Shown piece by piece: positions 5,101 to 23,578 of a stretch of 27,999 nucleotides of DNA. The notes under the pieces were generated by a model, which saw only the letters and a list, made by a program, of their open reading frames with translations, had not been told where the DNA came from and searched no databases. Position 1 is the stretch's first letter; each line of letters begins with the position of its first letter. Source of the stretch: a virus; IMG/VR virus record IMGVR_UViG_3300017717_000050, positions 1 to 27,999 of that record; one strand, given 5' to 3'. The position numbers and the translations under genes were made by a program.

Positions 5101-5487
5101 ATGGCAGTTCAGCAAGCTGGCGGTGAAAATGAAGTTAAGCCTGAATCATTGTTGCCATATCTAAATCAGCTAAAGCTACGCCAAGATACCGGTGTTGGTA
5201 ATCTCTTTACGACTACAACAAAAGATGGTGCAGAAGTACCAATGGATGCTGTAAAAGTTGAGGAGCTTAGCCTGCAATTCTTGAAGCGGGCTGGTGGAAC
5301 AGGTAAGATTAGCGACGGTGCAAACCGTGATGCTGTTAATATGTTCTGGACTAAGGCGGCTGAGATATGGAATAAAAAGGTATCTGAAACCCCTGACATT
5401 GTACAGCAGTATCAGAAGCGTGCGCTACCTGGCGAGACAGCCTTTTATGCGTATGCTAAAGAGCAACTAAACTTACCAACTGAATAG
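2158..5487 (+). CDS. Large internal virion/ejection protein with phage tail lysozyme domain (1109 aa)
   Basis: The frame also opens at GTG 2155, but the GGAGG at 2147-2151 is 6 nt from the ATG at 2158, which overlaps the previous TGA, so 2158 is chosen. Residues about 38-70 hold GTDTVPAWLTPGEFVMN, a segment common in phage tail and tape-measure-like proteins. Residues about 111-251 match the phage tail lysozyme fold: a helix with AARGIMGNFYAESKLDP (candidate catalytic Glu138), then GRGLAQWE and a long helical end. This would open the peptidoglycan during DNA entry. The rest (about 260-1109) is Ala/Thr/Glu-rich with coiled-coil-like stretches (about 640-690) and is unassigned. It is first of three giant genes in tight tandem, like the internal core proteins of podoviruses. 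Domain call fairly sure; virion location inferred. Confidence 0.85.
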   Translation: MKLKKFEQKDRYGNMFSIEFDTSVPEMSMIPEHPGSPKGTDTVPAWLTPGEFVMNAEAVRMFEPQIEAMNDKGRAMQAAQGGTIPEYSADGGPVSLPKPKPKMPDIPALEADQLYKMLKDRGFTDTAARGIMGNFYAESKLDPDAKQKLDSGKTGKGRGLAQWEKGGRFDTDPLNLVDFAAKQEKSWRDPEVQLDFMLAEMNNSEAFGDVRTAMNAAKSPADAAKIFLEGYEKANPDKAHLDRRVDYAMNYKADEEPTMLASILGMFGTTEAQAATADDVPASQSMPIPKPAVPETSRTPVMTAMTGQEMPVTSTIADMLAAAQAQYKAPGGVVEDDNYAAQFDALKKLAQQATANTGMYVGDEVLEEGGTNYDAARHAEEIQMMQKMRRDSAIAEDAAANEAAMLTASTPPIPKVPDVPAPVVTPEVRSINKFGKTDNYQKEGGKWYRIKADGSLAKDPATGLVAANLNNQESPLTGEGTADAVPMPTSNLPSGSRGSGEFLDTGKGNRVPDTAAPPKPEQKSQLPAEGTTYLDPSSNIVYTVDKYGRLLNSYGHPAPAGVQDTFTQQQAGLLETADADPSKIVKPYEKTVDQLAADAVTLQEKATKEVAETGQVSSDTATAIAQNRGQTTQVTKVEADEAAAAEAKRLEEATAARKTLTADYEEAKRIAEASGVTDFPDFDTWKQRQNIDTDTDIGEQGDGTTTSENATKKSEVLTAITKDIESINDGSADGTTTADASKAVVKAGAEGQEKTEQAESFLQGIFGDLFDKGELKRMAILYAGSRLMGGSHGGSLNWAAKQYLTRVDAKAAEHSAQVKKLINDGKYTPKSIQEYKKTKDASVLMKLGPAINPTGTKEMWYSPSGKRIQAEKFKVGDGHIWSADGGKTAIPASWTQEASRHKGTDEFNDRIRVEVPLLRDSIKELSTSIGDVVPGDSKAGRARTQKTNITPTNAAMEAAEWAAKNGLDVASMNTYVEQAYRMAVQQAGGENEVKPESLLPYLNQLKLRQDTGVGNLFTTTTKDGAEVPMDAVKVEELSLQFLKRAGGTGKISDGANRDAVNMFWTKAAEIWNKKVSETPDIVQQYQKRALPGETAFYAYAKEQLNLPTE

Positions 5488-5496
5488 GAGATTGCT

Positions 5497-8400
5497 ATGG
5501 GTGACTTTGACGCATTGTTCCAAGTAAGTACCGACCTAGCAGGTAGTGGAGGACACACCTTTGCTGACGCGGATACACTAAGGAATGATGAGGGTAACCT
5601 ACTCCGTATCCAAGGCTTAGAAGCAGCTGAGCTTGCACACGTAACGGCTACAGGACTTGACCCTGGAACCGCCGGTGGTATGGCAGCTACTGAAGAAATC
5701 ATGGCCTTGGCTAATAAGTTTGGCTTTAATAATGTACAGTATCTTACGAACCCAGATGGCACTCCTATGATGGATGCCACTGGGACTCGTCAGATGGTAC
5801 GGATTAAAGACAAAGTTGGTCGTGACTTTACAGAACAACTAACTAGGCACGGTATTAATGAGGTTGGTGCGTACAGTACAAACAACGAAGTTATTACAGC
5901 TAAGCTGGGAATGGCTGAGCGTGCTAGTAAACTTGATCAACCTCTTAATGACTGGGAAAAAGCAGGTCAAGCTATTGAGCAAGCTACTACCGATGAAATG
6001 CGGTATGAGCAAGAGTTCAAGCAGACTGCACTAAACGAACGAGCACTAGCAAGATTAAATGCACCTCAGCAGCCGGGTGAAACTGCAGCAATGTATGCTC
6101 GCCGAATGGCTGAGGCTAATAAGTTTATTGATGCTGGTGTACAGGTACGTAGCCTAGATCGTATGCTAGAAAATAAAGCGGTTAATCCACTAAGCGAAAG
6201 CTTTGATGTAGGTTTGACTGGTGTTATTGAAAGTATGTACGGTGTTGCAGAAATGGTTGGTGAAACCACTGGCTGGAACTGGGCAGAAGAATTAGGTGAA
6301 GCCGGAGTAGCACGTCAGCGTGCTTTTCTGGCATCTAAGCCTGAGCTAAAACTAAGTGCACTAAAGCCTATTGTAGACAAAGATGGTAATGTTACAGGTA
6401 ATGAATGGGATATCGACAGTGTTGGTGAATTCTTTCAATACCTCGGTAACAATGCTGCGGTGTCATTACCATATATGGCAAACACAATTGCTGGTACGGT
6501 ACTTGCTCCGGTTACCGGTGGTGTGTCAATGCTGTCACCCGCCGCTATGTATACAGGACAAACCTGGAATGAGATGGAAGGTGAAGACCGTAATGCTGGA
6601 CTAGCTATTGCTGCTGGTGTTACGCAAGCCGCTCTTGATAGACTCGGTTTGTTTGGTATTATGAAGGGTGCAAGCATTCTTAAGAAAGAAACCAGAGATG
6701 CCGCTGTTGCTGCAATCGTAGCACGTGATGGTGTTACTGATACTGTTGCTAAGAACATGCTAGCAAATGCTACACGACTTGAAGTGGCTAGCCTTGCTGG
6801 CGCAGCATCTGAAGTTGCTAAGCGCCAACTTAAATCGCGTAATGTACTACGTAGCTTTCTTGCATCATCCAGTAAAGGTATGGCAGGCGAAGCTGTAACA
6901 GAAGCCGGTCAAGAACTAACTGGTTATATGGCTGCTACACTTGGCAGTGATAAAGAGTTTGATGCAGTTGAACTTGAAAGCCGACTACTAAATGCTACTA
7001 TTGCTGGTGGTACTTTAGGTGCGGGCTTCTCTATTCCTGGTATTGCATATGATGCCGGCGCCTGGGCCGATGTTGCCGTGCGTCAAGCACCTGCTGAAGC
7101 TAAGCGCTTATCTAAGCGTGGTCAACGCGCTGAAGAAGAGGTTCGGCAATTCGGTAGAGTTAAATCTATTCAGGAGTTGAATGATGATGCAGGCACAGCT
7201 GTAACGGCACGGGGAAATCAGGGTGCAAGCTTCCAAGAAAAGGTTGACGCAGCTAACCGCCGTGATTTAGAGCGGTCAGTATTTGATAGAGTAAAAGATA
7301 CTTGGCAGGCTGTGCCTAGCTTATGGCGAGGCGCTACACGTTTTATCTTTAACGAAAGTTTGCAAGATCGCTCAAGAGCTATGCGAATATTAGCTGATAC
7401 TTTTGGTGGTAATCTACAGCGCACATTTTCAGGTTCAAACTTTGAAAACCGTAAGAAACATTTGCTAACTGAATACCGAAATATGGTTAGCTCACCAGCT
7501 GAGTTTGCTCAAGCTGCTGGGTTTAAAACCATTAGTCAGCCTGAGCTGTCAAGCATTATTAATAAGTTTGGTTCATGGCTAGGTAATCAATCTAGTGCAG
7601 GCATAGACTGGGATAATCTTCCAGAAGATATTAGACGGCACCGTAACTGGCTCGCTCAATACTATCAACAAACTATGAAGCTTAGTGATAAACTATATAA
7701 TGATCAGGTAGCTGCTGCTCAAAAGAATAATAAGCCTGCACCTCTTGGCTATATAAAGAACTACTTATTTAAGTATAAGTCTTTTAATAAAGTAGCTATT
7801 GAAAAAGATCGTAATGGTTTTATACAAAAGCTAATGGACAATTATAATTATAGTCGTACTGATGCTGAAACACTTACTGATAATATTCTTAATCAAGAAA
7901 CATTGGTGGGAGAACAAGACACATTTAATGTAGGTCAAGGTAGGTTTATACCTGCTGCACACCGCAGTCGTACTCTTAATCTATCTGAAAACCCTGAGTT
8001 TAAACAATTCATGGAGTCAGATGCGTTTACTAATATATCTAATGCTGCTAAGTCGGCATCTCGTTATATTACATATCAAGAGTTTCTTGGTGATAATAAT
8101 GCAAAAGTAAATGAGCTGTTAAATCAGGCGCTAGAAGAAGGTGTACCTGCAGCAGAAGTAAATAAAGTTGCAGCACAAATGCAAGACTACCTAGATGCAG
8201 AGTCGGGTAACTATAAGCGTATGCAAAACCGTACTCTTGCTAACATTCAAAAGAACCTTGGTATCTGGACTACAATTGCTGGTCTACCTCTTGCTACTAT
8301 CTCATCGTTTGTTGAGCTAGCTATTACAACCGTAGGACTACCAAAAGATATGGTCTTCAAGACTATTGGTAACGCTTCAAAAGAAATGGCGCAAGCATTA

Positions 8401-9414
8401 TGGGGAACTATAACAGATCCTCGCTATAACTCTACAAACCGACAGGTAGGTAAAGAGTCTAGGCAAGAAAACATTAAACGCCTTGGCTTCTTTGATTGGG
8501 ATGTTGGTGCAGCACAGACTACTGGTGCTACAGAAAATACACATGCATCACGTCATCTGCTAGATAAATACTTTAAGATTATTGGATTGCAACAGTGGAC
8601 TGACTACACGCGTAGCATTCGGGCATCGATTGCTAACGACTTTATTATGAATCACCTTAGTACGATTCAGGATCAAAGAGTTAGCGGTGAGCCGAAGACT
8701 AACGCAGTGCAGGAATCTGAAGAGCATCTCCGTAATCTCGGTATTAATGTAGATGATATGCTTGCTATGGTATATCAGCCAGGGCCTTGGTCACCAGAAC
8801 AAACTGCAGCCTTCGATGCTATGATGCTTGAGGCAGAGTTTAACTTTGTTAATATGGCTATTGCACTTCCAGGTGTTGCTAACCGTCCATTGTTCTATCA
8901 GAACCAGCATCTTGCTTTGTTTACGCAGTTCCAGGGTTTCATCTCTACATTTACTGCTAATCAAATACCGAAGATGTGGGGCGAGTATGTTGCGCGTGGT
9001 ACTCCAGCTATGAAGTATAATGTGTTTGCTGTTATGACAACAATGCTTTTGCTTGGATTTGTATCTCAGTATTTGAAAGACCTACTTAAGTATGGTGAGC
9101 CATCTCCTTATCTTGATGATATGGAAAAGCTTCAGCGTGCTGTTGGTTCGTCTGGATTGCTAGGTACTGGTGAGCGCGTTCTTAACTTTATCTATCCTAT
9201 TTATGAATCATCATCTGATAATGCAGCTGAGTGGTTCTTTAATACGGTCTCTGGTGAGGCTGCTGCACTTTCAAACGTGGCTCGTGTCTACGGTGGTGCA
9301 GGTAAAATCATTGAAGGTAGACCGGAGAAAGGTGTATATGATATACTTAAGACGGCCCCATTTGTGGGACCATTCAATCAACTTAACCGAACAATCGCTA
9401 GCGCATTCGAATAG
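5497..9414 (+). CDS. Giant ejection-type virion protein with N-terminal SNase-like domain (1305 aa)
   Basis: AGGAG (5486-5490) overlaps the previous stop and lies 6 nt before the ATG. Residues about 20-125 resemble staphylococcal nuclease: DADTL (24-28) for the DGDT loop, R37, E42 and E45 for the R-x-x-x-x-D-T-P-E region, then DKVGR (105-109) with R109 for the second catalytic Arg, followed by FTEQLTRHGI like the VNEALVRQGL helix. Further on are several hydrophobic stretches (about 310-350, 365-390, 500-520, 925-950, 1180-1200) in a mainly helical protein. The C-terminus has LKTAPFVGPFNQLNR. Size, hydrophobic segments and position resemble T7 gp16-type internal core proteins that enter the cell with DNA. 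Whether the nuclease-like domain is active is unknown. Confidence 0.8.
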   Translation: MGDFDALFQVSTDLAGSGGHTFADADTLRNDEGNLLRIQGLEAAELAHVTATGLDPGTAGGMAATEEIMALANKFGFNNVQYLTNPDGTPMMDATGTRQMVRIKDKVGRDFTEQLTRHGINEVGAYSTNNEVITAKLGMAERASKLDQPLNDWEKAGQAIEQATTDEMRYEQEFKQTALNERALARLNAPQQPGETAAMYARRMAEANKFIDAGVQVRSLDRMLENKAVNPLSESFDVGLTGVIESMYGVAEMVGETTGWNWAEELGEAGVARQRAFLASKPELKLSALKPIVDKDGNVTGNEWDIDSVGEFFQYLGNNAAVSLPYMANTIAGTVLAPVTGGVSMLSPAAMYTGQTWNEMEGEDRNAGLAIAAGVTQAALDRLGLFGIMKGASILKKETRDAAVAAIVARDGVTDTVAKNMLANATRLEVASLAGAASEVAKRQLKSRNVLRSFLASSSKGMAGEAVTEAGQELTGYMAATLGSDKEFDAVELESRLLNATIAGGTLGAGFSIPGIAYDAGAWADVAVRQAPAEAKRLSKRGQRAEEEVRQFGRVKSIQELNDDAGTAVTARGNQGASFQEKVDAANRRDLERSVFDRVKDTWQAVPSLWRGATRFIFNESLQDRSRAMRILADTFGGNLQRTFSGSNFENRKKHLLTEYRNMVSSPAEFAQAAGFKTISQPELSSIINKFGSWLGNQSSAGIDWDNLPEDIRRHRNWLAQYYQQTMKLSDKLYNDQVAAAQKNNKPAPLGYIKNYLFKYKSFNKVAIEKDRNGFIQKLMDNYNYSRTDAETLTDNILNQETLVGEQDTFNVGQGRFIPAAHRSRTLNLSENPEFKQFMESDAFTNISNAAKSASRYITYQEFLGDNNAKVNELLNQALEEGVPAAEVNKVAAQMQDYLDAESGNYKRMQNRTLANIQKNLGIWTTIAGLPLATISSFVELAITTVGLPKDMVFKTIGNASKEMAQALWGTITDPRYNSTNRQVGKESRQENIKRLGFFDWDVGAAQTTGATENTHASRHLLDKYFKIIGLQQWTDYTRSIRASIANDFIMNHLSTIQDQRVSGEPKTNAVQESEEHLRNLGINVDDMLAMVYQPGPWSPEQTAAFDAMMLEAEFNFVNMAIALPGVANRPLFYQNQHLALFTQFQGFISTFTANQIPKMWGEYVARGTPAMKYNVFAVMTTMLLLGFVSQYLKDLLKYGEPSPYLDDMEKLQRAVGSSGLLGTGERVLNFIYPIYESSSDNAAEWFFNTVSGEAAALSNVARVYGGAGKIIEGRPEKGVYDILKTAPFVGPFNQLNRTIASAFE

Positions 9415-9425
9415 GAGGATAGCAC

Positions 9426-12400
9426 ATGGCTAAATTTTCAGGACCTAGTGTAATACCTGGGGCTCAGCCCACTATGCCGACTGAGGGTAAAGTTAGCGAT
9501 TTTGCAGAAATTTTGGCTACTCCGGTACCAGAACAAGCAGTAACACCGGAGCCCACCACAGCTCCGGAAGTTGCTGCTCCTGCAATTCCTACTCAACCGA
9601 TTACAGAGGTTGCCACGGAAGCCCAGATGCCCGCTATCGATATGCCTGAGGCACCTACTCCGGCCCCAGATTTGGTAGCTGAGCAGCGCGAGCGGGAAAG
9701 AGTGCCTGCTTACACAGAAAAACTAAAGCGAACTACACTTGCACCAAGTGCTGTACAAAATACGCAGCCCTTGGAAAGCGCACTGGTGCGTGCTGATAAT
9801 ACTACCGCTGTTATGGCAGAGGAAGTTGGTGGTTCTAAGATGACCGCTAAGAAGCTAGAGACATTACAAGCTGGCTTCCCTGAAGCTGCGTTCTCTGCGA
9901 CAGATCCCGAGGGTAATATCAAGGTACCAGTAGCTCCTGCATTGCGTGGCTCTACTATTAATGTGGGCGTTCAGTCTTTACTGTATGATCCGCGAATGCT
10001 TGATGCCGGTAAATACGATGAAGAAACCGGTCGTATGTCAATTGATCCAGACTTTGGGCGGGTTATGTCGCTTACAACTGAGGCATGGATGCACCAACAG
10101 ATGGATGCTGCCACTGAAATGGCTGGTAAGATTGATGAAGAAACCGGTATGCCAGGTGATTATGTACCTGGACAACAGGGTGGTCAGCGATTTACTAAAG
10201 CTACAGGTAACCAGGGGCTTGGCCGTGAAATCTTTATGGCTTACAAGCGCCAGCGTGCAGTAAACGAAGGTAGACCTACTGATGATTATTTACAAAACAT
10301 TGACGAGATTTCACCCGAAACATTTATTTTCCTGGGTGATCTTGCAAAAGAGACTTACGCTCGTGCGAATCCTGATATGGTATATCGAGATACGCGTGAA
10401 GTGGATTCAGGTGGTCAAGTCTATTATCAGATGACACCAGAAGGTGCTATTGAATTGGATAGATTGAACCAGGACTTTAAAGGTTTGATGGCGCAGCCTG
10501 AAGTTAAACCGCTTAAGGGTGTATCAGAGACTGCTCAGCCTGTGTTTGAAGGCCGCATGAGGGTTCGTCCGGTTACTACAAAGGTTGGTGACCTTAAAGA
10601 TTGGTCGCTAGTTCAAGAATCAATGGCGAACTATCACAGTGTTCCATATGTAAATGATGCGGGGCGTGAGCGTCTAGCGTTTATGTTTGGAGTGCTGGGT
10701 CTAATCAATACTAACAACCCAGATAACCAAACCTATGCTGGAATGTATGGTATCGGATTAGATAAGTTGAATGAACTTGAAGGTGAAAAGCAACGCATGA
10801 TGGATGCTGCTATGCGTATTCCGTTTCCTGATGCGCGTGAGGCGGCCATTAGAGAAGCTCAAGCTTATAATCCACAAAAGATTTTGCAGGCAAACCGTGA
10901 AAAGTTTTTGAATATTGCTGGAGCTGCGGCTGAATACTCAAACGAGGTTAACCATCTTACGTTTTCAATGCAAGCACTCACTGGTCGTACTCATGTGCAG
11001 CAAACACTTTATAATCCAGCGGCACATAAGTTCCTAAGGTTTATTGTAGGAGGTGGAAATGTTTATAAGTGGAAGCCAAATACTGGTGGTGAAGTTGAAG
11101 CTGCTTGGAAAGAGATTATTTCTGGCTTGCTTTTGTCCGCTGAAAAAGACGGTAAAGTATTTAAGGGTACGGAGTTATCAACTCAGGAACGCCTGGCTAC
11201 ATTTGACCGGACAATAGGTAATGATCAGTGGAATCAGTTTGTAGCTTGGGGTAATCAACTTAAGCAGGCACGTGATAACTTTGATATTAATGGTGCTAAG
11301 CAGGCAGTTGAAGCTATTCGTAAAGCTCAATCACCTGATGCTGTTCGTGGTATCAAACAAGATATTGTAAAGCGCTTTAGTAATGATCCACTAGATGCAA
11401 ACCTGAAAGCCGAGCTAGCTAAGCACGGTGACGAAGGTCCAATGTTTGCAAACCTGTTTATTGAAGTGGCTAACTATGATGCTGCTCGTAAAGATGGTGC
11501 GCAGTTCTCAACAACAATTACTGCTGAGATGGATGGTAAAACACATGGACCTGCTACTAATGCTGCTATTCTTGGTGTATCTTCTATGGCCAAGCGTACA
11601 GGACTTATCGTAACTCAAGACTTTTCTAATACAGATTGGCTTGATTCACGAAAAGCTATGGGCGAAAACATGCAGGCGACTGTTGGTACTTATGCGGGTA
11701 CACTTTATCCGGCTAACCAGATTTCGTACTTTACAAATATTCTTAACCTTGCAATTAAAGATAGAGCTAACTTCCTTAAGAAGTCGCCTATGACTATGGG
11801 TTATGGCCAGGAAATTCCATCGCTTAAGCAGCATGTGGAAACTACAGTTTACTCTGGACCATCCGCAGATGCTATTAAGAAAGAAGCAGTAGCTGGTGAG
11901 ATTAGTCTTGATGATACTGTAGACTTTCTCCATACAATGCTGGTTGATTCTATCTTTGAAATCATGGACCCAAAGGTTGTTGCTATGGGCAGGCTGCTTA
12001 AAGCTAATGCAGTTATGTCAATGGCCAGTAACGAGGTACTTTACTTCGATAATGCTATGGGTTTCCGTAGTTATGCTGCTGGTAAACAAATGGCGCCTGA
12101 GCTTACAACCTCTAGCTCCTTTGAATTTAAGGATCAAGAAGGTGGTCGTAAGAAGGTTGCTGTTCAATTCTATAAAGAGCGTGCGGAAGGATCAGCCGAA
12201 CGCCCAGAACTTGGGCCAGGCGGATGGACACTGGGTCGTATTATTCCGGTTTCAGTGCAGTCTTATGATGGAAATATGATTGCTCGCACAGGATCGGGCC
12301 AGTCTTGGGAACGTATCAGCCAAGCGGCTAAGGGTAAACCATTTGTCCTACCTATCTTTGATGCGTTTGTTACCGACCTTGGTAGCTTTGCTGCTGTACG

Positions 12401-12914
12401 TCGTGAAGCAAACAAGAATTGGTTCGAAGGTATTCGTGATCACAGTTATGTAGAGGAAGTAGCTGGTACATGGTTTGATGACACCATGAAAAAAATTGCA
12501 GCTCCTCTTCCAGATCCTAATGAAAAAGTAAACCTGGATGAAGATGAACCATACCGTGGACTTGCATATCTACTGTCTCGTACTAAGCAAGGTGATCTTG
12601 TTTTAAGTAAGTTCTTAGCTAAGACACTTCAGCATAAGGCAAAGACACCGGGAACTTCTATTGATCAGTACACCGCCCAGCTTCAAATAGCAGGTGAAGA
12701 AGCTGCTGTTCAATTTGAAAACGACTTAGCTGATATGGGAATTGATGTAGACAATACAGTATTCACTAAGCGTCAGATCCAAAGAATTCTTATGACACTT
12801 AAGAATACTATGAACCTCAGTCAAAGAAACAAACAAGCAGTCGCAGTAACTGCTAAAGATAAACGAGAAGTATTGTCGCAAGTTGATAAGAACCTTACAC
12901 AGATGGATCTTTAA
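9426..12914 (+). CDS. Putative virion-encapsidated single-subunit RNA polymerase, N4 vRNAP-like (1162 aa)
   Basis: AGGAGG (9413-9418) is 7 nt before the ATG. Residues 30-90 are Pro/Ala/Thr/Glu-rich and probably disordered. The polymerase motifs of the T7/N4 family follow in order: ALTGR (517-521) for T/D-x-x-G-R, with NP nine residues further as in T7; motif A D703-GKTHG; motif B KKSPMTMGYG (785-794), where K785 and Y793 keep the T7 K631-to-Y639 spacing; then IIPVSVQSYDG (939-949), matching T7 IAPNFVHSQDG; and motif C PIFDAF with D979. Motif B to C spacing (186) is near T7 (173). Being third in the ejection-protein operon, far from the T7-type polymerase gene, fits a polymerase packaged in the capsid and injected to transcribe early genes. 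The N4 enzyme is far larger; this would be a compact version. Motif assignment is mine; packaging is inferred. Confidence 0.72.
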   Translation: MAKFSGPSVIPGAQPTMPTEGKVSDFAEILATPVPEQAVTPEPTTAPEVAAPAIPTQPITEVATEAQMPAIDMPEAPTPAPDLVAEQRERERVPAYTEKLKRTTLAPSAVQNTQPLESALVRADNTTAVMAEEVGGSKMTAKKLETLQAGFPEAAFSATDPEGNIKVPVAPALRGSTINVGVQSLLYDPRMLDAGKYDEETGRMSIDPDFGRVMSLTTEAWMHQQMDAATEMAGKIDEETGMPGDYVPGQQGGQRFTKATGNQGLGREIFMAYKRQRAVNEGRPTDDYLQNIDEISPETFIFLGDLAKETYARANPDMVYRDTREVDSGGQVYYQMTPEGAIELDRLNQDFKGLMAQPEVKPLKGVSETAQPVFEGRMRVRPVTTKVGDLKDWSLVQESMANYHSVPYVNDAGRERLAFMFGVLGLINTNNPDNQTYAGMYGIGLDKLNELEGEKQRMMDAAMRIPFPDAREAAIREAQAYNPQKILQANREKFLNIAGAAAEYSNEVNHLTFSMQALTGRTHVQQTLYNPAAHKFLRFIVGGGNVYKWKPNTGGEVEAAWKEIISGLLLSAEKDGKVFKGTELSTQERLATFDRTIGNDQWNQFVAWGNQLKQARDNFDINGAKQAVEAIRKAQSPDAVRGIKQDIVKRFSNDPLDANLKAELAKHGDEGPMFANLFIEVANYDAARKDGAQFSTTITAEMDGKTHGPATNAAILGVSSMAKRTGLIVTQDFSNTDWLDSRKAMGENMQATVGTYAGTLYPANQISYFTNILNLAIKDRANFLKKSPMTMGYGQEIPSLKQHVETTVYSGPSADAIKKEAVAGEISLDDTVDFLHTMLVDSIFEIMDPKVVAMGRLLKANAVMSMASNEVLYFDNAMGFRSYAAGKQMAPELTTSSSFEFKDQEGGRKKVAVQFYKERAEGSAERPELGPGGWTLGRIIPVSVQSYDGNMIARTGSGQSWERISQAAKGKPFVLPIFDAFVTDLGSFAAVRREANKNWFEGIRDHSYVEEVAGTWFDDTMKKIAAPLPDPNEKVNLDEDEPYRGLAYLLSRTKQGDLVLSKFLAKTLQHKAKTPGTSIDQYTAQLQIAGEEAAVQFENDLADMGIDVDNTVFTKRQIQRILMTLKNTMNLSQRNKQAVAVTAKDKREVLSQVDKNLTQMDL

Positions 12915-13431: not shown

Positions 13432-13681
13432 TGTCGATTTTATGGAGGGCTTCTCTGCGCCAGTCGGCTGCGTATCGTTCACCATCTTCTCCTTTGTTAG
13501 CGTAGTATTCTTTTACGCGGTTATATTCTTGTTCAATAATGTATTCGTCTAGTTGTCTATCAGACATAGAGTCAGCTAGGGATACGTCCATCCCTAGCTC
13601 CTCTAGTGCTGTCTTGTTATCTGGTTCTAGTCCCAGTCTGACCGGGAGGATACCCGATGCTTTACGCGAAGAAGTAGTCAC
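13424..13681 (-). CDS. Acidic small protein downstream of RNA polymerase, function unknown (85 aa)
   Basis: It starts at GTG 13681 inside the last codons of the RNA polymerase gene (20-nt overlap). GAGG, 9 nt upstream of the GTG on the - strand, supports this start. The sequence begins with a short basic segment (SSRKASGILPVRLGL), then is strongly acidic and helical with EEYxxNK-like patterns (YIIEQEYNRVKEYYANKGEDGERY). There is no recognisable domain. The location right after the polymerase suggests coordinated expression with it. Confidence 0.75.
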   Translation of the reverse strand: MTTSSRKASGILPVRLGLEPDNKTALEELGMDVSLADSMSDRQLDEYIIEQEYNRVKEYYANKGEDGERYAADWRREALHKIDID

Positions 13682-15854
13682 TGTCTTGCACCTCTCTTAT
13701 CTCCAGGCTTCCAAGTCCTGGTTGTTCATAGTTAAAGTTATCTGGATTAGTAATCAGCATGTGCTCTATTACATCAAAGTAATTAGGGTAATCATACATG
13801 CTTACAAACTTATCCTTAATGATTTGAAGTAGGTCGTCAACATCACACGCATGTACACTAAATGAATCATGAACAGCACCGAAGTCACTGCCCCATTCTT
13901 TAATTACTGCAGCCATGTGTGCAGCATCCATTGAGTGTACAAAGTTTGGTGAGATGCCTGACATAAAGGAACGTATCTTTGGTTTGTCTGTAGCTTCTTT
14001 ACCTACATGTTGGATACGAATGGTATCTGTTTCTTCTTCAGTACCGTCTTCCTTACGAATTACTGGCTTAACCTTTCGCTCAGTACAACTGATAGTTGCT
14101 TTCTCTTTAAACTCGTTATCTATAAATGCTTCATAGATAACTGGAAAGCCGGAAGGCGTAGTCCATCTAATAGATTTCTGCTGGGTTTCTTTAGCGTAGT
14201 CCGAAGCAATCTCAGCTTCAGCTATCTTTTGTAAAAACTTCATAGTCTGTAGTGGACCTGCGCATACCTCATCAATTGACTTAACAAGATGCTTAGCAAG
14301 CAGTCGACAATCTTCTTCAGTAATATTATACCTATCTAAGTAACCTTCAACGTGACAATCAAGATACATGTTCTCAGCTATCTTAGATGCACCTGCACTG
14401 TATGCTCGGGTCATTGATCCACGCTTAGCGATACCCTTACGTATATGTTTCATGGGCATCTGGCGCTCGTCGAACCACTCCGGTAATCTTGTAATAAGAT
14501 TCTTAGCACACTGTACATAGAAGTCTTTCTGGATCTCCTGCGGAACTACTCCTACAAGTTCACCAGCTTCTTTGTCTTTAGACATAGCACATAGGTGTTG
14601 CCACCCGTTGTTGCTACCATCTACCGGGATCGGTAAGTAAGTATAGTATTCACCCCCGCTATTAATGGCATTGTATATTTCTAATACACAAGCGAGAAGT
14701 GTAATAGGTTTTTCAGCTGCTAGTTCAATCCGTTCCTCAGCTGCGATTGACATTAGCATATCTATATTGTTATCAGTCCATGCCTCACGATCTACCAGTG
14801 TCATCTTGTCAACTGATATATCATCCAAACCTTCATCTTCAAGATACGATAAGTAGTCTGCCGTAACCCAATCAGGTAGCTCATCACGATGATAAGTTTG
14901 ATTGTAGCAGCTAGCAATGTGTATCTTTAATCTGCGTAGGCCTTCCTCAGTCATGAGTTTACCGTTAGCAAATAGCATTTGTCCTCGAGCAATATCATTA
15001 CTTTGAAAGTTTAGGAAGGGGGTTGTGTAGTATAGCCGACCACGATAGTCAGCTTCGGTGTACTGATAAAAAGTATTGTCTTCGATGAGTGCGGACCGTG
15101 CCATTGTCAGATCGAACTCAATGATCTTAGACTTATACTTTTTGGGAAGGTGTTTATGTTGATCGATAATCTTTTCACGATTACGTAAAAGAATATCTCG
15201 AATTTGTGTATTGATTTTCCACGGAGTTTGCTGCAGAACATTCATGCTTTTAATAAAGTCGCGGTAAAGATACTGGTTAAACTCACCACTCCTTTGTTCA
15301 GTCCAGCCTTTTATTATAGGTCTGTCTGTGGGTTGCATGAGTTGTGAAATATCTTCAGGCTTACTAAAGGTTGTACCGGCTAGCAAATCTTTAGAACCTT
15401 CTGGCACTATTAGATTCCATAGTTCCGGTACAACAATATAGTGTGTGCGACTTCTCTTTAATCCTCGATCCAGACTTTCCATTGGTACAAAAGAATCATC
15501 TTTATTTTTACCAATATTAATCTGGTGTGTTTGATAGAATGCTTCCAGCAACAGATCACCCATCATTACACGTAGCTTAAACCATTCCCAAGGTGCTTGA
15601 TCCTCGTGATAATATTTAATATCATCGAGAATATATTCGCCAATTGTTGTACTCAAGTGAGTAAGGTTGGCTTCACCTTGGTATGATTTGTTTCCACGTA
15701 TACTATTACGAGTAAAGTGTTGCTGGATAGTATCCATAGTAAACACGAGGTAAGCCTCGAGGTCTGCGTCAGATGTTAACTTTAGCAGACTACAAGCAAT
15801 GTGAGCTTTAGCTTTTCTTATCTTCTCCTTTAGGTATTGGAGTTGTGCTTGCAT
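13662..15854 (-). CDS. T7-type single-subunit DNA-dependent RNA polymerase (730 aa)
   Basis: All core motifs are present: DYRGR (269-273) for D-x-x-G-R, motif A D412-GSNNGWQH, motif B AKRGSMTRAYS with K477 and Y485 (eight apart as in T7 K631/Y639), GISPNFVHSMDAAH, and motif C VHDSF with D663. T7 RNAP is 883 aa; the missing length is N-terminal, where promoter recognition and RNA exit elements lie in T7, so promoter specificity probably differs. The usual Gly after the motif B Tyr is Ser (YS rather than YG). The ATG has AGGA about 7 nt upstream on the - strand and overlaps the end of the dCMP deaminase gene by 47 nt. It should transcribe middle and/or late phage genes. Its promoters were not recognised here. 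Confidence 0.96.
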   Translation of the reverse strand: MQAQLQYLKEKIRKAKAHIACSLLKLTSDADLEAYLVFTMDTIQQHFTRNSIRGNKSYQGEANLTHLSTTIGEYILDDIKYYHEDQAPWEWFKLRVMMGDLLLEAFYQTHQINIGKNKDDSFVPMESLDRGLKRSRTHYIVVPELWNLIVPEGSKDLLAGTTFSKPEDISQLMQPTDRPIIKGWTEQRSGEFNQYLYRDFIKSMNVLQQTPWKINTQIRDILLRNREKIIDQHKHLPKKYKSKIIEFDLTMARSALIEDNTFYQYTEADYRGRLYYTTPFLNFQSNDIARGQMLFANGKLMTEEGLRRLKIHIASCYNQTYHRDELPDWVTADYLSYLEDEGLDDISVDKMTLVDREAWTDNNIDMLMSIAAEERIELAAEKPITLLACVLEIYNAINSGGEYYTYLPIPVDGSNNGWQHLCAMSKDKEAGELVGVVPQEIQKDFYVQCAKNLITRLPEWFDERQMPMKHIRKGIAKRGSMTRAYSAGASKIAENMYLDCHVEGYLDRYNITEEDCRLLAKHLVKSIDEVCAGPLQTMKFLQKIAEAEIASDYAKETQQKSIRWTTPSGFPVIYEAFIDNEFKEKATISCTERKVKPVIRKEDGTEEETDTIRIQHVGKEATDKPKIRSFMSGISPNFVHSMDAAHMAAVIKEWGSDFGAVHDSFSVHACDVDDLLQIIKDKFVSMYDYPNYFDVIEHMLITNPDNFNYEQPGLGSLEIREVQDSDYFFA

Positions 15855-16263
15855 ACTTTGTCCTATCTACTTTAATGTTCTGAATTAGTAGTAGTGTTCC
15901 TGAATCGTCTTTGTATGCATCAGAAAATACTACCCGACTAATACCACTTTGCAGTATTAGTTTTGCACATTCAACACAAGGAGCGAGGGTACAATATAGT
16001 GTTGCACCCTCTGAACACCCTGTGCTCTTGGCTAGTTTACATATGGCGTTCGCTTCAGCGTGAATTACTTCAGCTTTAGTACCGCCATTAGTTGTTTTAC
16101 AATTGTTTTCCATACCCGAAGGCATGCCATTGTAACCCATGCTTAGTATGTTACCGTCTTTGACAATCACTGCACCTACTTTTGTATCGGCATCGTAACT
16201 CATTTGAGCTACACGATGCGCGATATCAATGAAGAGACTGTCGAGTTTGCTTTGATCTGGCAT
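15808..16263 (-). CDS. Deoxycytidylate (dCMP) deaminase (151 aa)
   Basis: Zinc-dependent dCMP deaminase: converts dCMP to dUMP for dTTP synthesis. The zinc ligands and proton shuttle are visible: HAEAN with H68 and E70, and PCVEC with C96 and C99. The substrate-loop segment GYNGMPSGMENNC is also typical of the family. Length is normal for phage dCMP deaminases. The ATG overlaps the primase-helicase stop by one base (TAATG). It belongs with the ThyA-family and MazG-like genes upstream as a nucleotide-pool module. With a ThyA homologue that looks cytosine-specific here, its product might not feed that enzyme, which is worth testing. Confidence 0.93.
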   Translation of the reverse strand: MPDQSKLDSLFIDIAHRVAQMSYDADTKVGAVIVKDGNILSMGYNGMPSGMENNCKTTNGGTKAEVIHAEANAICKLAKSTGCSEGATLYCTLAPCVECAKLILQSGISRVVFSDAYKDDSGTLLLIQNIKVDRTKYASTTPIPKGEDKKS

Positions 16264-19032: not shown

Positions 19033-19274
19033 TATATCGTCCATACAGCTTCGACACCCCAAACACTATCGATTTGTTTTCGATACATTGGGTTATCTGG
19101 TTCATCGTAAATAGGGTTGCTAAAGGCAAAGCAGTCTTTAACAATATGACCCTTAGAAGTATGATAGCATTTCACCATATGAAACCAGTCTTTAGGTTCA
19201 TAACCCTCTGGTTTCGGGTGAGCAGTAACCATATAGCCAGGGTACTCAATGGATTCATCAGTGGACATCTGCAT
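19032..19274 (-). CDS. Small protein between DNA polymerase and exonuclease, function unknown (80 aa)
   Basis: The frame opens further upstream, but ATG 19274 has GGAG about 7 nt before it and overlaps the DNA polymerase end by only 17 nt, so it is preferred. The protein has aromatic-rich segments (KDWFHMVKCYHTSKGH, DEPDNPMYRK) and two Cys, without a known motif. One-base stop/start overlap with the exonuclease gene indicates coupling and a replication-linked role. Confidence 0.75.
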   Translation of the reverse strand: MQMSTDESIEYPGYMVTAHPKPEGYEPKDWFHMVKCYHTSKGHIVKDCFAFSNPIYDEPDNPMYRKQIDSVWGVEAVWTI

Positions 19275-21084
19275 AGTTATCTCCAATAGATCCTTCACCT
19301 GCCATGATAGTAACACCAACTTGCTTAGGTCCTTCAGCAAATGATTCAGTTAGAATCTCTAGTACTCGCTCAGCATCTTTATCAGATGCAGACCAAGCTA
19401 CCTCGTCGTGATAGTACAGTCGAGGTTGTGCGTCAAGACCTTCACTTTTAATCTTTGCAATCTGATAGGCAACTGCAGATTTAGTGGTGATAGCTTCACA
19501 AGATTGAAGCAGGTAGTTAAGAGTTTGGTAAGGTTGCGGTGTGTAAACACGTCGACCATCGAGACCAGGAATATAACCTTCAGGTCCATGGTTAGACGTT
19601 TGTTTCCAGATAGATTCAATACGATCTTTAAGACCACGCAATCCTGGAATTGCATCGCCATACTTTTCGATAGAATCATTACCAGCTTTAACAATCTTCT
19701 TACCTGTAAGTACTTGGCCTAGCTTAGTAGGTCCAGCGCCAAACAAGAAAGCATAGATCCATGTTTTAGCTGTGCGTCTATCAGTACCAATAATGTCTGC
19801 ATTGTATTGGTGAATATCACCAGACAGAATTTGTGTTGTCAGGTTTTTATCGTTAACATAATGTGCAAGACTGCGGAACTGATTACCACTTGAGTCAGCA
19901 CCTACGATCTTGCGACCAGGCTCTGCTACAAGACATTGACGTAGCTCTTTACCCCACGGTGCATTAACCGCAGGTAGGTTAGCAATAACTTCATGACGAC
20001 AACGGAATGTCGGAGTACCCACAATCCATAGTCTGCCGTGTAGTCTACCATCTTTAAGCTCACGGAACCAACCTTCAAGTACACCTTTGCGTGAGCGAAG
20101 CGTTGTCCACTCATCAATAAGTATACCGTGTTCGCCAACTTTTTCTAGTGAAGTTGATGTTAGCTTAGGCGATTTCTTTTCCCAGCCATATACACCACGC
20201 TCCATCTTCCAGTCATCTGGCTCCCAGCCAATTGAATAAAGATACTCTTTGACTTGTTCCATATTACCGAGTGTAGCCTTGATTGTTTCTTTACGTTGAA
20301 ACTCTCGACCGGCTGCAAGCATATGTGTATCAGTAGGTTTAACTTCACGCTTAAAGTATTCAGTAAGCATACGTGCGGTTGTTGCAGTGTACTCACCTTT
20401 CTTTGTAAACTTCGGAGTTTTAGCTACTTTATCTTTGTACTTAACAATATCTGGTAGGTGTGGTTCGACTACGCTTTCAATGTATTTCATACGATTGATA
20501 AGCTTATCGAGCGTGTCCTTACCTTTATCAGTATCGAATTGCCATCCGTAATGTCTACAGTAAGCATCAAACTTTGCAGCTTCCATTTCTGCTTTCAAAC
20601 CTTCACGAATAAGAGGTTGCTTAGCAGCGAGTGCAGTAAGTTCTTCCATTAGCTTCTTGAAGATTACAGTATTCAGTTGTACATCACGTATACAATACGT
20701 AACCATTTCTTCAGAGAACTCTGAGAAGTTATCGAAGTTTAGTTTATGGTATCCTAAGTGTTCACCCCAGCCTGCCAAGCCATGCTTGTGTGGTCTGCGG
20801 TAATTAAGAACTTGTGATGCAATCCATGTATCAAAGAACTTATTATTGTAAAGATCAACACCATACAGCTTAAGAATTACAAGTGCATCAAAGCCAATGC
20901 CGTTATGTGCAACAAGCAGCTCAGCGTTTTTAAGTACGCTTAGGCCCGTTGCAATATCACCATTGCACTTCATAGGTTGATCGGTATACTTCATGATACG
21001 TCCTGTATCAATGTCTTCCATGATTAGACACCATATTTTGGTAGCGTCTAACCCATCGGTTTCAATATCAAATGTTAGTCTCAT
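19258..21084 (-). CDS. Family A DNA polymerase with 3'-5' exonuclease (608 aa)
   Basis: Replicative T7-like polymerase. The proofreading domain has DIETDG (D6, E8), AHNGIGFD (D66) and YCIRD (Y130, D134). The polymerase domain has motif A GADSSGNQFRS (D397), motif B RRTAKTWIYAFLFGAG (R436, K440, Y444, F448) and motif C YHDEV (H559, D560, E561). Y444 is at the position of E. coli Pol I F762 / T7 Y526. Two positions differ: the motif A Glu (Pol I E710, T7 E480) is Gln402, and the motif B Tyr (Pol I Y766, T7 Y530) is Phe448. At 608 aa it is about 100 shorter than T7 gp5, suggesting no thioredoxin-binding insert. AGGG lies 6 nt before the ATG; the start overlaps the zinc-ribbon gene by 17 nt. Confidence 0.97.
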   Translation of the reverse strand: MRLTFDIETDGLDATKIWCLIMEDIDTGRIMKYTDQPMKCNGDIATGLSVLKNAELLVAHNGIGFDALVILKLYGVDLYNNKFFDTWIASQVLNYRRPHKHGLAGWGEHLGYHKLNFDNFSEFSEEMVTYCIRDVQLNTVIFKKLMEELTALAAKQPLIREGLKAEMEAAKFDAYCRHYGWQFDTDKGKDTLDKLINRMKYIESVVEPHLPDIVKYKDKVAKTPKFTKKGEYTATTARMLTEYFKREVKPTDTHMLAAGREFQRKETIKATLGNMEQVKEYLYSIGWEPDDWKMERGVYGWEKKSPKLTSTSLEKVGEHGILIDEWTTLRSRKGVLEGWFRELKDGRLHGRLWIVGTPTFRCRHEVIANLPAVNAPWGKELRQCLVAEPGRKIVGADSSGNQFRSLAHYVNDKNLTTQILSGDIHQYNADIIGTDRRTAKTWIYAFLFGAGPTKLGQVLTGKKIVKAGNDSIEKYGDAIPGLRGLKDRIESIWKQTSNHGPEGYIPGLDGRRVYTPQPYQTLNYLLQSCEAITTKSAVAYQIAKIKSEGLDAQPRLYYHDEVAWSASDKDAERVLEILTESFAEGPKQVGVTIMAGEGSIGDNYADVH

Positions 21085-21259
21085 CGGTTTCCCTTTCTAG
21101 CATATGCTGGTTGAGACATTTAGGGCAGTGATCTTCGAGTCTATCAATCCACATTCTTTGGTATAGGATAGAGCACGAAGGACACTTAATTATTTCAAAA
21201 GGTAGCTCAGTAATATGATCGATATTACTCCTCATATGTTTGGGCGACTTGTCTGGCAT
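21068..21259 (-). CDS. Small zinc-ribbon-like protein (63 aa)
   Basis: Two CxxC pairs, CPSC (C26, C29) and CPKC (C45, C48), spaced 15 apart, form a likely zinc ribbon or zinc finger; the protein ends in an acidic tail. Start uncertain: ATG 21259 has AGGA 10 nt upstream but a 35-nt overlap with the gene before it; ATG 21235 (55 aa) gives a smaller overlap but no binding site. The stop overlaps the DNA polymerase start by 17 nt, so co-expression with replication genes is likely. A nucleic-acid or protein-binding accessory is plausible. Confidence 0.75.
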   Translation of the reverse strand: MPDKSPKHMRSNIDHITELPFEIIKCPSCSILYQRMWIDRLEDHCPKCLNQHMLERETDETNI

Positions 21260-21689
21260 TTACATAGTATCCTGCGTTAAACTTAGATGGGCGCAGGTTT
21301 TTAAGAAAATCCATATAAGACAAAATGCCGATTACATTAATCTCTACTTCATCACCTGCTTTAAGGAGACGCTCTGGCCTGTTGACCCATTCACAGAATA
21401 CAAATGTTTCAACATCTGTAGACTGCCATGCAAGATACGCCATTTTCTTATGAGCAATGTTGTAAAACTTATCAATAAACTTTACGTCAACATTACCATA
21501 CACATCTGAAACACCATCGACTTTCCAAGAGTCGTGGTCATCCCACTGGTCTGTGCTAATCATATGGTACTCAAAGATTTCGCATTCAATATCTCTAATG
21601 AGTTGTTGTTCAGATCGTTCGCCAGCATTGTATATATTTGAGCGGGCAATACATTGATCTACGAATTCCTGCGAGACTATAATTTTCAT
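21225..21689 (-). CDS. PD-(D/E)XK nuclease-like protein (154 aa)
   Basis: Starts directly after the MazG-like stop, with GGAAGAG just upstream. The middle of the protein reads WKVDGVSDVYGNVDVKF: an acidic residue (D58 or D62) followed about 8 residues later by D68-V-K70, the arrangement of a PD-(D/E)XK nuclease core, with E35/E37 as a possible N-terminal acid. The C-terminal part (about 100-150) has a short beta-like domain with AGDEVEINVIG. I see this by pattern only; the assignment to the superfamily is tentative. A DNA repair, recombination or host-DNA-degrading role would fit its place before DNA polymerase. Confidence 0.72.
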   Translation of the reverse strand: MKIIVSQEFVDQCIARSNIYNAGERSEQQLIRDIECEIFEYHMISTDQWDDHDSWKVDGVSDVYGNVDVKFIDKFYNIAHKKMAYLAWQSTDVETFVFCEWVNRPERLLKAGDEVEINVIGILSYMDFLKNLRPSKFNAGYYVNARQVAQTYEE

Positions 21690-22139
21690 TTACTCTTCCT
21701 TTCCGAGTACTCTTGTAAGAACGCCTGTTGTATGCGTATGGTCCGGTCCACTCCATCCCTCAGGTTTAATAAGATCAGGAAGACCGAGAGGGTTGGGGCG
21801 CGAAGCCTTAACGCCAGGCTCTTTCGCCATGTTTGCTTCCATGACTTCAGCCCAAGCACCAGCGGCGTCGCAGCCGAATGCATCCAGTGTACCGATGGCG
21901 ATAACACATAGGTCGATAAGGCCATCAACAACTTCAGCTGGATCTGAGTTATTAAATGCTTCTTCTGTTTCATTTAGTTCTTCTTTCAGAAATTGAATAC
22001 GAAATTCTAAAAACTTCTTTAGAGATTCCATATCTCCTTCATCTAGTTTACTGTTAACCCAATCATGCACACCAAATAGGTTATGCATGTCTTCAATGTG
22101 ATAGTGCCAAGGCACATCAGTATTTACTCGATAGCTCAT
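21690..22139 (-). CDS. MazG-like nucleotide pyrophosphohydrolase (149 aa)
   Basis: An all-alpha NTP pyrophosphatase core at about residues 38-105. The metal-binding signature is complete: E54-x-x-E57 followed by E69-x-x-D72 in KEELNETEEAF...AEVVDGLIDL. It would hydrolyse a nucleoside or deoxynucleoside triphosphate to the monophosphate. The C-terminal tail (KASRPNPLGLPDLIKPEGW) is typical of phage versions. AAGGA lies 6 nt before the ATG. It sits immediately downstream of the ThyA-family gene, so a role in the same nucleotide pathway (for example dCTP to dCMP) is an attractive inference, but substrate cannot be read from sequence. Confidence 0.85.
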   Translation of the reverse strand: MSYRVNTDVPWHYHIEDMHNLFGVHDWVNSKLDEGDMESLKKFLEFRIQFLKEELNETEEAFNNSDPAEVVDGLIDLCVIAIGTLDAFGCDAAGAWAEVMEANMAKEPGVKASRPNPLGLPDLIKPEGWSGPDHTHTTGVLTRVLGKEE

Positions 22140-22141
22140 TT

Positions 22142-22933
22142 TTATTCCTTTACTGAATATTTAATGGAGTCTTCGTATTTGTAGCTTGAAATTGTAAGAT
22201 CTGATGGTTCAAATGAATACACATCTGCTTGCTTTTTCAAGTCGTATTTAGGTGGAGCCCATGGCAAACGCTTAATTTGTTTATGAGCATCGCTAATATG
22301 ATCGGCGTATACATGTGCATCCCCAACTATAAACTTAATAGTGCCTGGCCTAAGGGCAGCAACACTACTAAAGCATAGAAGCATAGTTGCAGAAAGCACC
22401 ACATCACTGGGAACTCCCACCATCCAATCTCCGGATCTTTGGATCCATAGTAAATCCAATGTGTTACCGTCAGAATAAAACTGGTAGTTGTGGTGACAGC
22501 AGGGTAGATTAAGATCATCGAGTTTATCAGGACGCCATCCACTAATAACCATGCGACGATCAGCTGGATTGTTAAGCAGGCTGTCAATAACATTCGCCAT
22601 TTGGTCGACACCATTAAAGTCACGCCATGCATTACCGTAGTCAACAGCAATCGAACCATCTTCGTTAGCCCATTGATTCCAGTAGTTGCAGCCCCATCTT
22701 TCAAAATCTTTAACATGTCGTGGGCCTCTAATCATTGCGGCGTACTCGCCTAGCACACCTTTATAAAACATTTGGCGTGTTGTAAGCAGCGGAAAGAAGC
22801 CACTTTCAAGTGAAAATTCCATTGTTTGAAATGGCAACGAGTGTGTTACAGCATTTCGAGTTTCTCTTACTGTTCCGTTATGTATGATTTTTCTAGCAAT
22901 ATCAATGTATTGCGATTCAAGTGTCCAAGCCAT
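22142..22933 (-). CDS. ThyA-family enzyme with N177D: candidate dCMP methylase/hydroxymethylase (263 aa)
   Basis: Thymidylate-synthase fold throughout. Residues fall at nearly E. coli ThyA numbering: catalytic C146 with H147 (LPCCHH), R126/R127 (DRR), QRSGD (Q165-D169), H207 and Y209 (GDAHVY), E63 in the active-site helix, and W85 at the E. coli W80 place. The PFNI motif is PSDV here, so the Asn that reads the uracil ring (E. coli N177) is Asp177. In T4 dCMP hydroxymethylase this position is Asp, and Asn-to-Asp mutants of ThyA prefer dCMP (established knowledge). It may therefore methylate or hydroxymethylate dCMP rather than make dTMP. AAAGGA precedes the ATG. Confidence 0.9.
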   Translation of the reverse strand: MAWTLESQYIDIARKIIHNGTVRETRNAVTHSLPFQTMEFSLESGFFPLLTTRQMFYKGVLGEYAAMIRGPRHVKDFERWGCNYWNQWANEDGSIAVDYGNAWRDFNGVDQMANVIDSLLNNPADRRMVISGWRPDKLDDLNLPCCHHNYQFYSDGNTLDLLWIQRSGDWMVGVPSDVVLSATMLLCFSSVAALRPGTIKFIVGDAHVYADHISDAHKQIKRLPWAPPKYDLKKQADVYSFEPSDLTISSYKYEDSIKYSVKE

Positions 22934-23137: not shown

Positions 23138-23307
23138 TACTCAACGTGCCTCAAAATCTTTTCGCTATATACATGCAGCACACCGCGGTCATCTTCAACC
23201 ACTAGACGAATAGCACCGCTTAGCTTTTCAAATACTGAAACAACGATGCCTACAAACGTATAGTCACCGCCAACTTTTTCTACTTTATCACCTACATTAA
23301 ACGTCAT
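23137..23307 (-). CDS. Small SH3/KOW-like protein (56 aa)
   Basis: The frame is open up to 23361, but the ATG at 23307 overlaps the upstream gene by 11 nt and has GGAG about 10 nt upstream, so it is preferred. The sequence FNVGDKVEKVGGDYTFVGIV...IRLVVEDDRGVLHVYSEKILR is a small beta-barrel pattern widely seen among phage hypothetical proteins. Function unknown; such barrels often bind proteins or nucleic acids. Confidence 0.8.
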   Translation of the reverse strand: MTFNVGDKVEKVGGDYTFVGIVVSVFEKLSGAIRLVVEDDRGVLHVYSEKILRHVE

Positions 23308-23578
23308 TCTTTTTATTCTCCAAATATGCTGCAAACATTGCGCAGTAAACGGCCATGTCAACTAGCGTGTCCTCAAGTGCTTCGAAGTTTGTTTCTTGAT
23401 CACCTTCACAGATATTTCGCATACGCAAATACTTTGTATGAATCATGTGAATGTAAGATGTATCTCCGAACGGGAAGTAATCTTCTTCAGTCCATGAGCC
23501 GCCCTGATAGTCTTTAGACTTACGCTCTTTAAGCTCAGCGGCTTCATGCAAAATTTGTACTGCAGTGACTTTCGCCAT
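23297..23578 (-). CDS. DUF1599/Nmad1-like nucleotide-modification-associated protein (93 aa)
   Basis: The frame can be extended to 23668, but that region encodes a different small gene and hairpin; ATG 23578 has AAGGAAG about 6 nt upstream, so it is the likely start. The sequence has KDYQGG and PFGDTSYIHMIHTKYLRMRN, then FEALEDTLVDMAVYCAMFAAYLE, where the E-x-x-D-T-L-x-D-x-A-x-Y pattern is that of DUF1599 (nucleotide modification associated domain 1). The fold is all-alpha and acidic residues E69, D70 and D74 may bind metal. It lies upstream of ThyA-family and MazG-like genes, consistent with a base-modification or pool role. Family recognised from memory, moderate certainty. Confidence 0.7.
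   Translation of the reverse strand: MAKVTAVQILHEAAELKERKSKDYQGGSWTEEDYFPFGDTSYIHMIHTKYLRMRNICEGDQETNFEALEDTLVDMAVYCAMFAAYLENKKNDV

Follow-up and report, generated by a model that had tools for sequence, protein, structure and literature searches.

A phage clade of thymidylate synthase homologues with aspartate at the base-selecting position, probably acting on dCMP

The described enzymes closest to the one analyzed here share the thymidylate synthase (TS) fold and are told apart by a few active-site positions, given throughout in E. coli ThyA numbering. In the dCMP hydroxymethylase of phage T4 (gp42), the base-selecting position 177 is occupied by Asp (Asp179 in T4). Its hydroxymethylase signature consists of Asp145, three residues before the catalytic Cys (Cys-3), where TS has Leu, and Ser94, which coordinates the catalytic water and lies structurally at Val93 of E. 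coli TS; Asp145 is required, and the D145N variant is inactive (PMC6400193). The dUMP hydroxymethylase of phage SPO1 (gp29) also has the TS fold and also carries Asp at Cys-3, but retains Asn177. Because the Cys-3 acid is common to the T4 and SPO1 enzymes, it goes with hydroxymethylation on either base. Substituting Asp for Asn at the base-selecting position turns TS into a dCMP methylase, as observed for N177D in E. coli and N229D in L. casei (PMC8670742, PMC6400193). Among phages, Xp12 DNA contains 5-methylcytosine for 100% of its cytosine (PMC7653180), and DNA of its relative AXL1 resists most restriction enzymes (PMC9206674). MetaGPA, which recovered DNA by selection for modified cytosine, found that the synthases of modified-cytosine phage contigs mostly carry Asp177 and are accompanied by PF01503 and PF00383 domains, and it lists position 147 as the second most discriminating (PMC8670742). 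The D177 rule and its tie to modified-cytosine phages have therefore been in print since that 2021 study; what is new here is a D177 clade with a D93/C145 active-site signature, spread across unrelated phages, together with a natural in-place gene swap.

The DNA analyzed, referred to as the window, spans 27,999 bases and constitutes the whole of IMG/VR record IMGVR_UViG_3300017717_000050, itself a fragment. A complete open reading frame on the minus strand (22142..22933, read from 22933 to 22142), with an ATG start and an AAGGA ribosome site, encodes a 263-aa ThyA homologue. Residues 8-261 match PF00303 (E = 2e-66; 224 bits against a cut-off of 24.3), and the catalytic Cys, the Arg pair, E58, and H207/Y209 are all present, placing the full-length protein in the TS superfamily. 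The AlphaFold model (pLDDT 94.8) adopts the TS fold over its whole length and matches E. coli TS ternary-complex structures (4gev) with a Z-score of 35.5 and an rmsd of 1.3 Å over 257 residues, C-terminus included. T4 gp42 was absent among the structural matches listed for the model, which is uninformative by itself. Taking the family match, residue alignment, and model together, we annotate the gene as a putative ThyA-like, dCMP-type C5 methylase or hydroxymethylase.

Alignment with E. coli ThyA showed that the catalytic residues named by the first-pass annotation (C146, R126, R127, Q165, S167, D169, H207, and Y209) were correctly read, and that E58, W80, W83, Y94, H147, G173, and P175 are kept as well. 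The numbering of the window protein coincides with that of E. coli from R126 onward. The change from PFN to PSD that the same annotation had proposed, with Asp at 177, is borne out: the motif is V-P-S-D in the window enzyme versus L-P-F-N in E. coli, and the Asp177 codon (GAT) lies at 22403..22405 on the minus strand. Asp98 of the window protein (GAC, 22640..22642, minus) aligns with position 93, Val in ThyA, beside the catalytic Tyr94. The segment L143-P-C-C146 (22496..22507, minus) contains the nucleophile Cys146 and places Leu where the T4 and SPO1 hydroxymethylases have Asp (PMC6400193). The T4-type signature, with Asp/Glu at Cys-3 and Ser/Thr two residues before Tyr94, is replaced by Leu and Val. 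A Trp at the E. coli W80 position had also been noted, as a pointer to the product; it is present (W85; W83 corresponds to W88), but T4 gp42 keeps the equivalent Trp82 (PMC6400193), and we dropped this residue as neutral.

Scans of IMG/VR, using first the protein and then an alignment as query, retrieved relatives down to ~44% identity, 139 of them in one scan, and others are encoded by cultured phages of Edwardsiella, Vibrio, Pseudoalteromonas, and Pelagibacter. The nearest named matches are from phages Kolga (49.6%), KF-1, PH1, VPMS1, and Amaethon; one locus (L005) is 100% identical to the window, and copies in other IMG/VR contigs are 97-100% identical. Asp177, the dCMP-type residue, is present in the window enzyme and in 66 of 66 non-redundant clade members, including isolates KF-1, PH1, VPMS1, and Kolga, whereas the phage ThyA proteins compared have Asn. 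Given this conservation, the identical locus, and the near-identical copies, D177 reflects neither chance nor sequencing error. Leu143 is likewise invariant (66/66), and W83 is kept by the window enzyme and 46 of the 66. Position 93, Val or Ile in the N177 ThyA sampled, is Asp in 58 members and Ser in eight, and it co-varies with positions 145 (Cys in 58, Pro in eight) and 165 (Gln in 58, Ser in eight). The Ser93/Pro145/Ser165 combination marks a sub-clade (L055, L056, L059, L061, L063, L070, L078, and L090) with a block change around the active site.

In a maximum-likelihood tree, the D177 clade holds together as a single branch (99/99) that is separate from N177 ThyA, the D177 enzymes of Pamexvirus (the Xp12 genus), the gp42-type enzymes, and the SPO1 dUMP hydroxymethylase. 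Gp42 and the swap-type genes described below occupy their own branch (100/100), with which the window enzyme does not group. Pamexvirus enzymes sit on a separate, long branch and show no close sequence kinship with the window enzyme. A further D177 enzyme, in locus L022 (899-1834), groups with an N177 ThyA; its residues at 93, 143, 145, 147, and 165 are the canonical ones, yet it has Asp177, and here the dCMP-type residue seems to have originated separately. On this tree, the N-to-D change at 177 appears to have arisen several times.

Set against the described systems, the window enzyme resembles each in part. It shares with T4 gp42 the TS fold, Asp at the base-selecting position, and a dCMP context, but lacks the Ser92/Asp143 signature and keeps W83, H147, Q165, and a C-terminal lid that gp42 lacks. 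At both 177 and Cys-3, it is the opposite of SPO1 gp29. The engineered N177D and N229D methylases have the same framework and the same single specificity substitution; the window enzyme is natural, however, and has the further clade-specific residues D93, C145, and S176. For the Xp12 genus, the comparison was made with relatives AXL1, AAT-1, and YB23 in place of Xp12 itself. Pamexvirus phages and relatives (AXL1, AAT-1) also pair a D177 TS-fold enzyme with a MazG-like hydrolase and a dCMP deaminase, and with DHFR, which here occurs only in some clade members; their enzymes are distant in sequence and carry Ala/Asn/Pro/Leu or Ile at 93/143/147/165, versus Asp/Leu/His/Gln in the window. Like the MetaGPA contigs, the window encodes the trio PF00303, PF01503, and PF00383, although no carbamoyltransferase was found in the related records searched. 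From these comparisons, the window enzyme, a D177 dCMP-type member of the TS superfamily, would work like a dCMP methylase of the Xp12 type or like a hydroxymethylase.

The neighboring genes described next are all on the minus strand. Just upstream of the synthase lies a DUF1599 gene ("nucleotide modification associated domain 1"; 23297..23578), assigned from synteny and a PF07659 match (3e-5) marginally below the Pfam cut-off. The next operon gene after the synthase (21690..22139) encodes a MazG/DR2231-like nucleoside triphosphate pyrophosphohydrolase (PF01503, 7e-9; DR2231, 3e-6) with a conserved EExxE...ExxD motif, which probably returns dCTP/dUTP to the monophosphate. No kinship of the MazG or DUF1599 protein with the T4 dCTPase gp56 was detected by hhalign. 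A conserved hypothetical gene with no family match (21225..21689) separates MazG from a family A DNA polymerase gene (polA, 19258..21084; PF00476, 5e-20), which served as the phylogenetic marker of the phage group. Further along in the same direction is a dCMP deaminase (15808..16263; PF00383, 3e-25; phrog_174, 4e-51) with the HAE...PCxxC motif.

Phages were collected through the DNA polymerase adjoining the synthase, and across the group the genes keep the order DUF1599–synthase–MazG–(hypothetical)–polA. In six loci (L037, L039, L042, L043, L071, and L076), whose polymerases are ~77-78% identical to that of the window, the synthase slot holds a gp42-type gene. These genes encode enzymes of 225-239 aa with the hydroxymethylase signature Ser92, Asp143, Thr147, Met165, and Asp177, and the DUF1599 and hypothetical genes are kept with both enzyme types. 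The exchange is one-for-one in L042, L043, and L071, with the same neighbors (DUF1599–[gene]–MazG–polA), while L037, L039, and L076 have two extra genes after MazG. The polymerase tree groups the six swap loci with three others, truncated on the upstream side, in a single clade (100/100) that lies nested within the carriers of the ThyA-like gene; among clade loci with enough upstream sequence, none has an N177 enzyme and none lacks both enzymes. Given this nesting, the simplest history is replacement of the ThyA-like gene by the gp42-type gene. Since a dCMP hydroxymethylase took its slot, the ThyA-like enzyme is best explained as dCMP-acting, and since a T4-type cytosine-modifying enzyme has taken the place of this gene in relatives, we infer that the phage DNA probably contains modified cytosine, most likely 5-methylcytosine. 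The exchange also supplies a natural pair for asking about methyl versus hydroxymethyl need against host defense. The two extra genes, in L037 (record G005, 19320-21603) as in L039 and L076, lie between MazG and the hypothetical gene and encode a PF04820 tryptophan-halogenase homologue and a 250-aa protein without a Pfam match. They were considered as modification genes and rejected, the first being a tryptophan-halogenase homologue and both being absent from record G006.

That dCMP is the substrate of the window enzyme, as first proposed, seems very likely from the clade-wide D177, the in-place swap with a T4-type hydroxymethylase, and the published link between D177 and modified cytosine (PMC8670742). 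Our preferred reading, to which we give a probability of about 0.55, is that the enzyme methylates dCMP and that 5-methyl-dCMP is incorporated into phage DNA. Replacement of Asn177 by Asp would let the enzyme bind and activate dCMP rather than dUMP: Cys146 would add to C6 of dCMP, with Asp177 holding and protonating N3, and methylene-THF would provide the C5-methylene adduct. Under a TS-like closed lid, hydride from THF would then reduce the adduct, yielding 5-methyl-dCMP and DHF. Host or phage kinases would convert the product to 5-methyl-dCTP, the MazG-like pyrophosphohydrolase and the DUF1599 gene product would probably draw down dCTP and supply dCMP, and the phage polymerase would incorporate the modified nucleotide, leaving cytosine 5-methylated against host restriction. 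Counting against this reading are the retained H147, given the MetaGPA ranking of that position, and the literature, where we found no biochemistry of the D177 clade. A literature search likewise returned nothing on whether DNA of KF-1, VPMS1, or ETP-1 resists restriction.

The first-pass annotation had allowed either 5-methyl-dCMP or 5-hydroxymethyl-dCMP as the product; our analysis favors the former by about two to one. The informative features are positions 143, 93, and 83 and the C-terminal tail, which together with DHFR–TS operons in relatives tilt the balance to 5-methyl-dCMP. DHFR is needed for a DHF-making reaction such as methylation, not for hydroxymethylation. The Xp12 genus, where a D177 enzyme is likewise encoded along with DHFR, points the same way. 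The DHFR gene overlaps or abuts the D177 synthase start in L139, L141, L150, L151/L153/L154, and L162-L166, and the DHFR-linked records checked (G015 and G017) have one TS-family gene, no second, and no ThyX; these members form essentially one sub-clade and so amount to about one independent observation. In L154 (1495-3437), the DHFR–synthase overlap follows a MazG-like gene and a short open reading frame, and in L166 (5504-6774), a dCMP deaminase gene comes after it.

The strongest alternative is a dCMP hydroxymethylase of non-T4 type, in which Asp177 would recognize the base while Asp93 or Ser93 and Tyr94 hold a water, giving 5-hydroxymethyl-dCMP and THF. The polar residue at 93, found in 66 of 66 members beside Tyr94, has no explanation in simple methylase chemistry and could support water attack, and T4 Ser94, its structural counterpart, does hold water (PMC6400193). 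Moreover, the enzyme that took over the slot is a hydroxymethylase, DHFR is absent from a near-identical 55-kb genome (G001) and most relatives, and one relative (L192) is annotated "pyrimidine hmase," by similarity only. Against these points stand the Cys-3 acid, essential in T4 but Leu in every member; the TS-like lid, with a tail that can be matched to E. coli TS right through to its final residue; W83 and Q165; and the DHFR–TS operons. Known enzymes that decorate hydroxymethylcytosine also failed to appear: searches of 28-30 related records turned up no AGT, BGT, GT1, GT2, or carbamoyltransferase (a T4 control was detected for AGT and BGT), and TET/JBP gave no match in a search run without a positive control. 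We regard this alternative as possible but less probable than methylation. It is likewise only tentatively that the clade may be seen as a second, independently evolved hydroxymethylase architecture, with Asp/Ser93 instead of Asp143 activating water, or, less likely, as part of a route in which dCMP is methylated and then deaminated to dTMP.

An ordinary TS, converting dUMP to dTMP despite D177, is improbable. It would account for the other TS catalytic residues, all kept, for the whole-length TS fold, and for this being the sole TS-family gene in these phages, and the encoded dCMP deaminase would supply dUMP. Yet D177 is without exception in the clade, the published N-to-D mutants prefer dCMP, and the hydroxymethylase that replaced the gene in situ is unable to stand in for dTMP making. 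Equally improbable is a dual route that leaves DNA cytosine normal, in which dCMP is methylated and the phage dCMP deaminase then yields dTMP: such deaminases accept 5-substituted dCMP, and the same phages encode one, directly after the synthase in L162-L166 and L139, but the in-place swap would break the route, and phages with the gp42-type gene keep the deaminase too.

Should dCMP methylation or hydroxymethylation hold for the clade, base-wide cytosine modification would be common in marine podovirus-like and other phages, encoded by genes annotated as plain thymidylate synthase. The contrast at 93, 143, and 177 opens a direct way to test how the superfamily decides between methyl and hydroxymethyl products.

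Outside the synthase operon, plus-strand genes of the window (2155-12914) encode three very large proteins, of 1110, 1305, and 1162 aa. They are possibly internal virion or ejection proteins and are conserved in most of the phage group. The window also encodes a 730-aa RNA polymerase of the T7-like single-subunit type (13662-15854). The 55-kb record of G001 looks complete, and its polymerase gene runs across the record ends, so the genome is probably circularly permuted. A window-type synthase also occurs in a 72.9-kb phage record with a family B polymerase (phrog_262), in a region (G004, 28115-37391) that includes S-adenosylmethionine synthetase, DAHP synthase, and phosphomannomutase-like genes.
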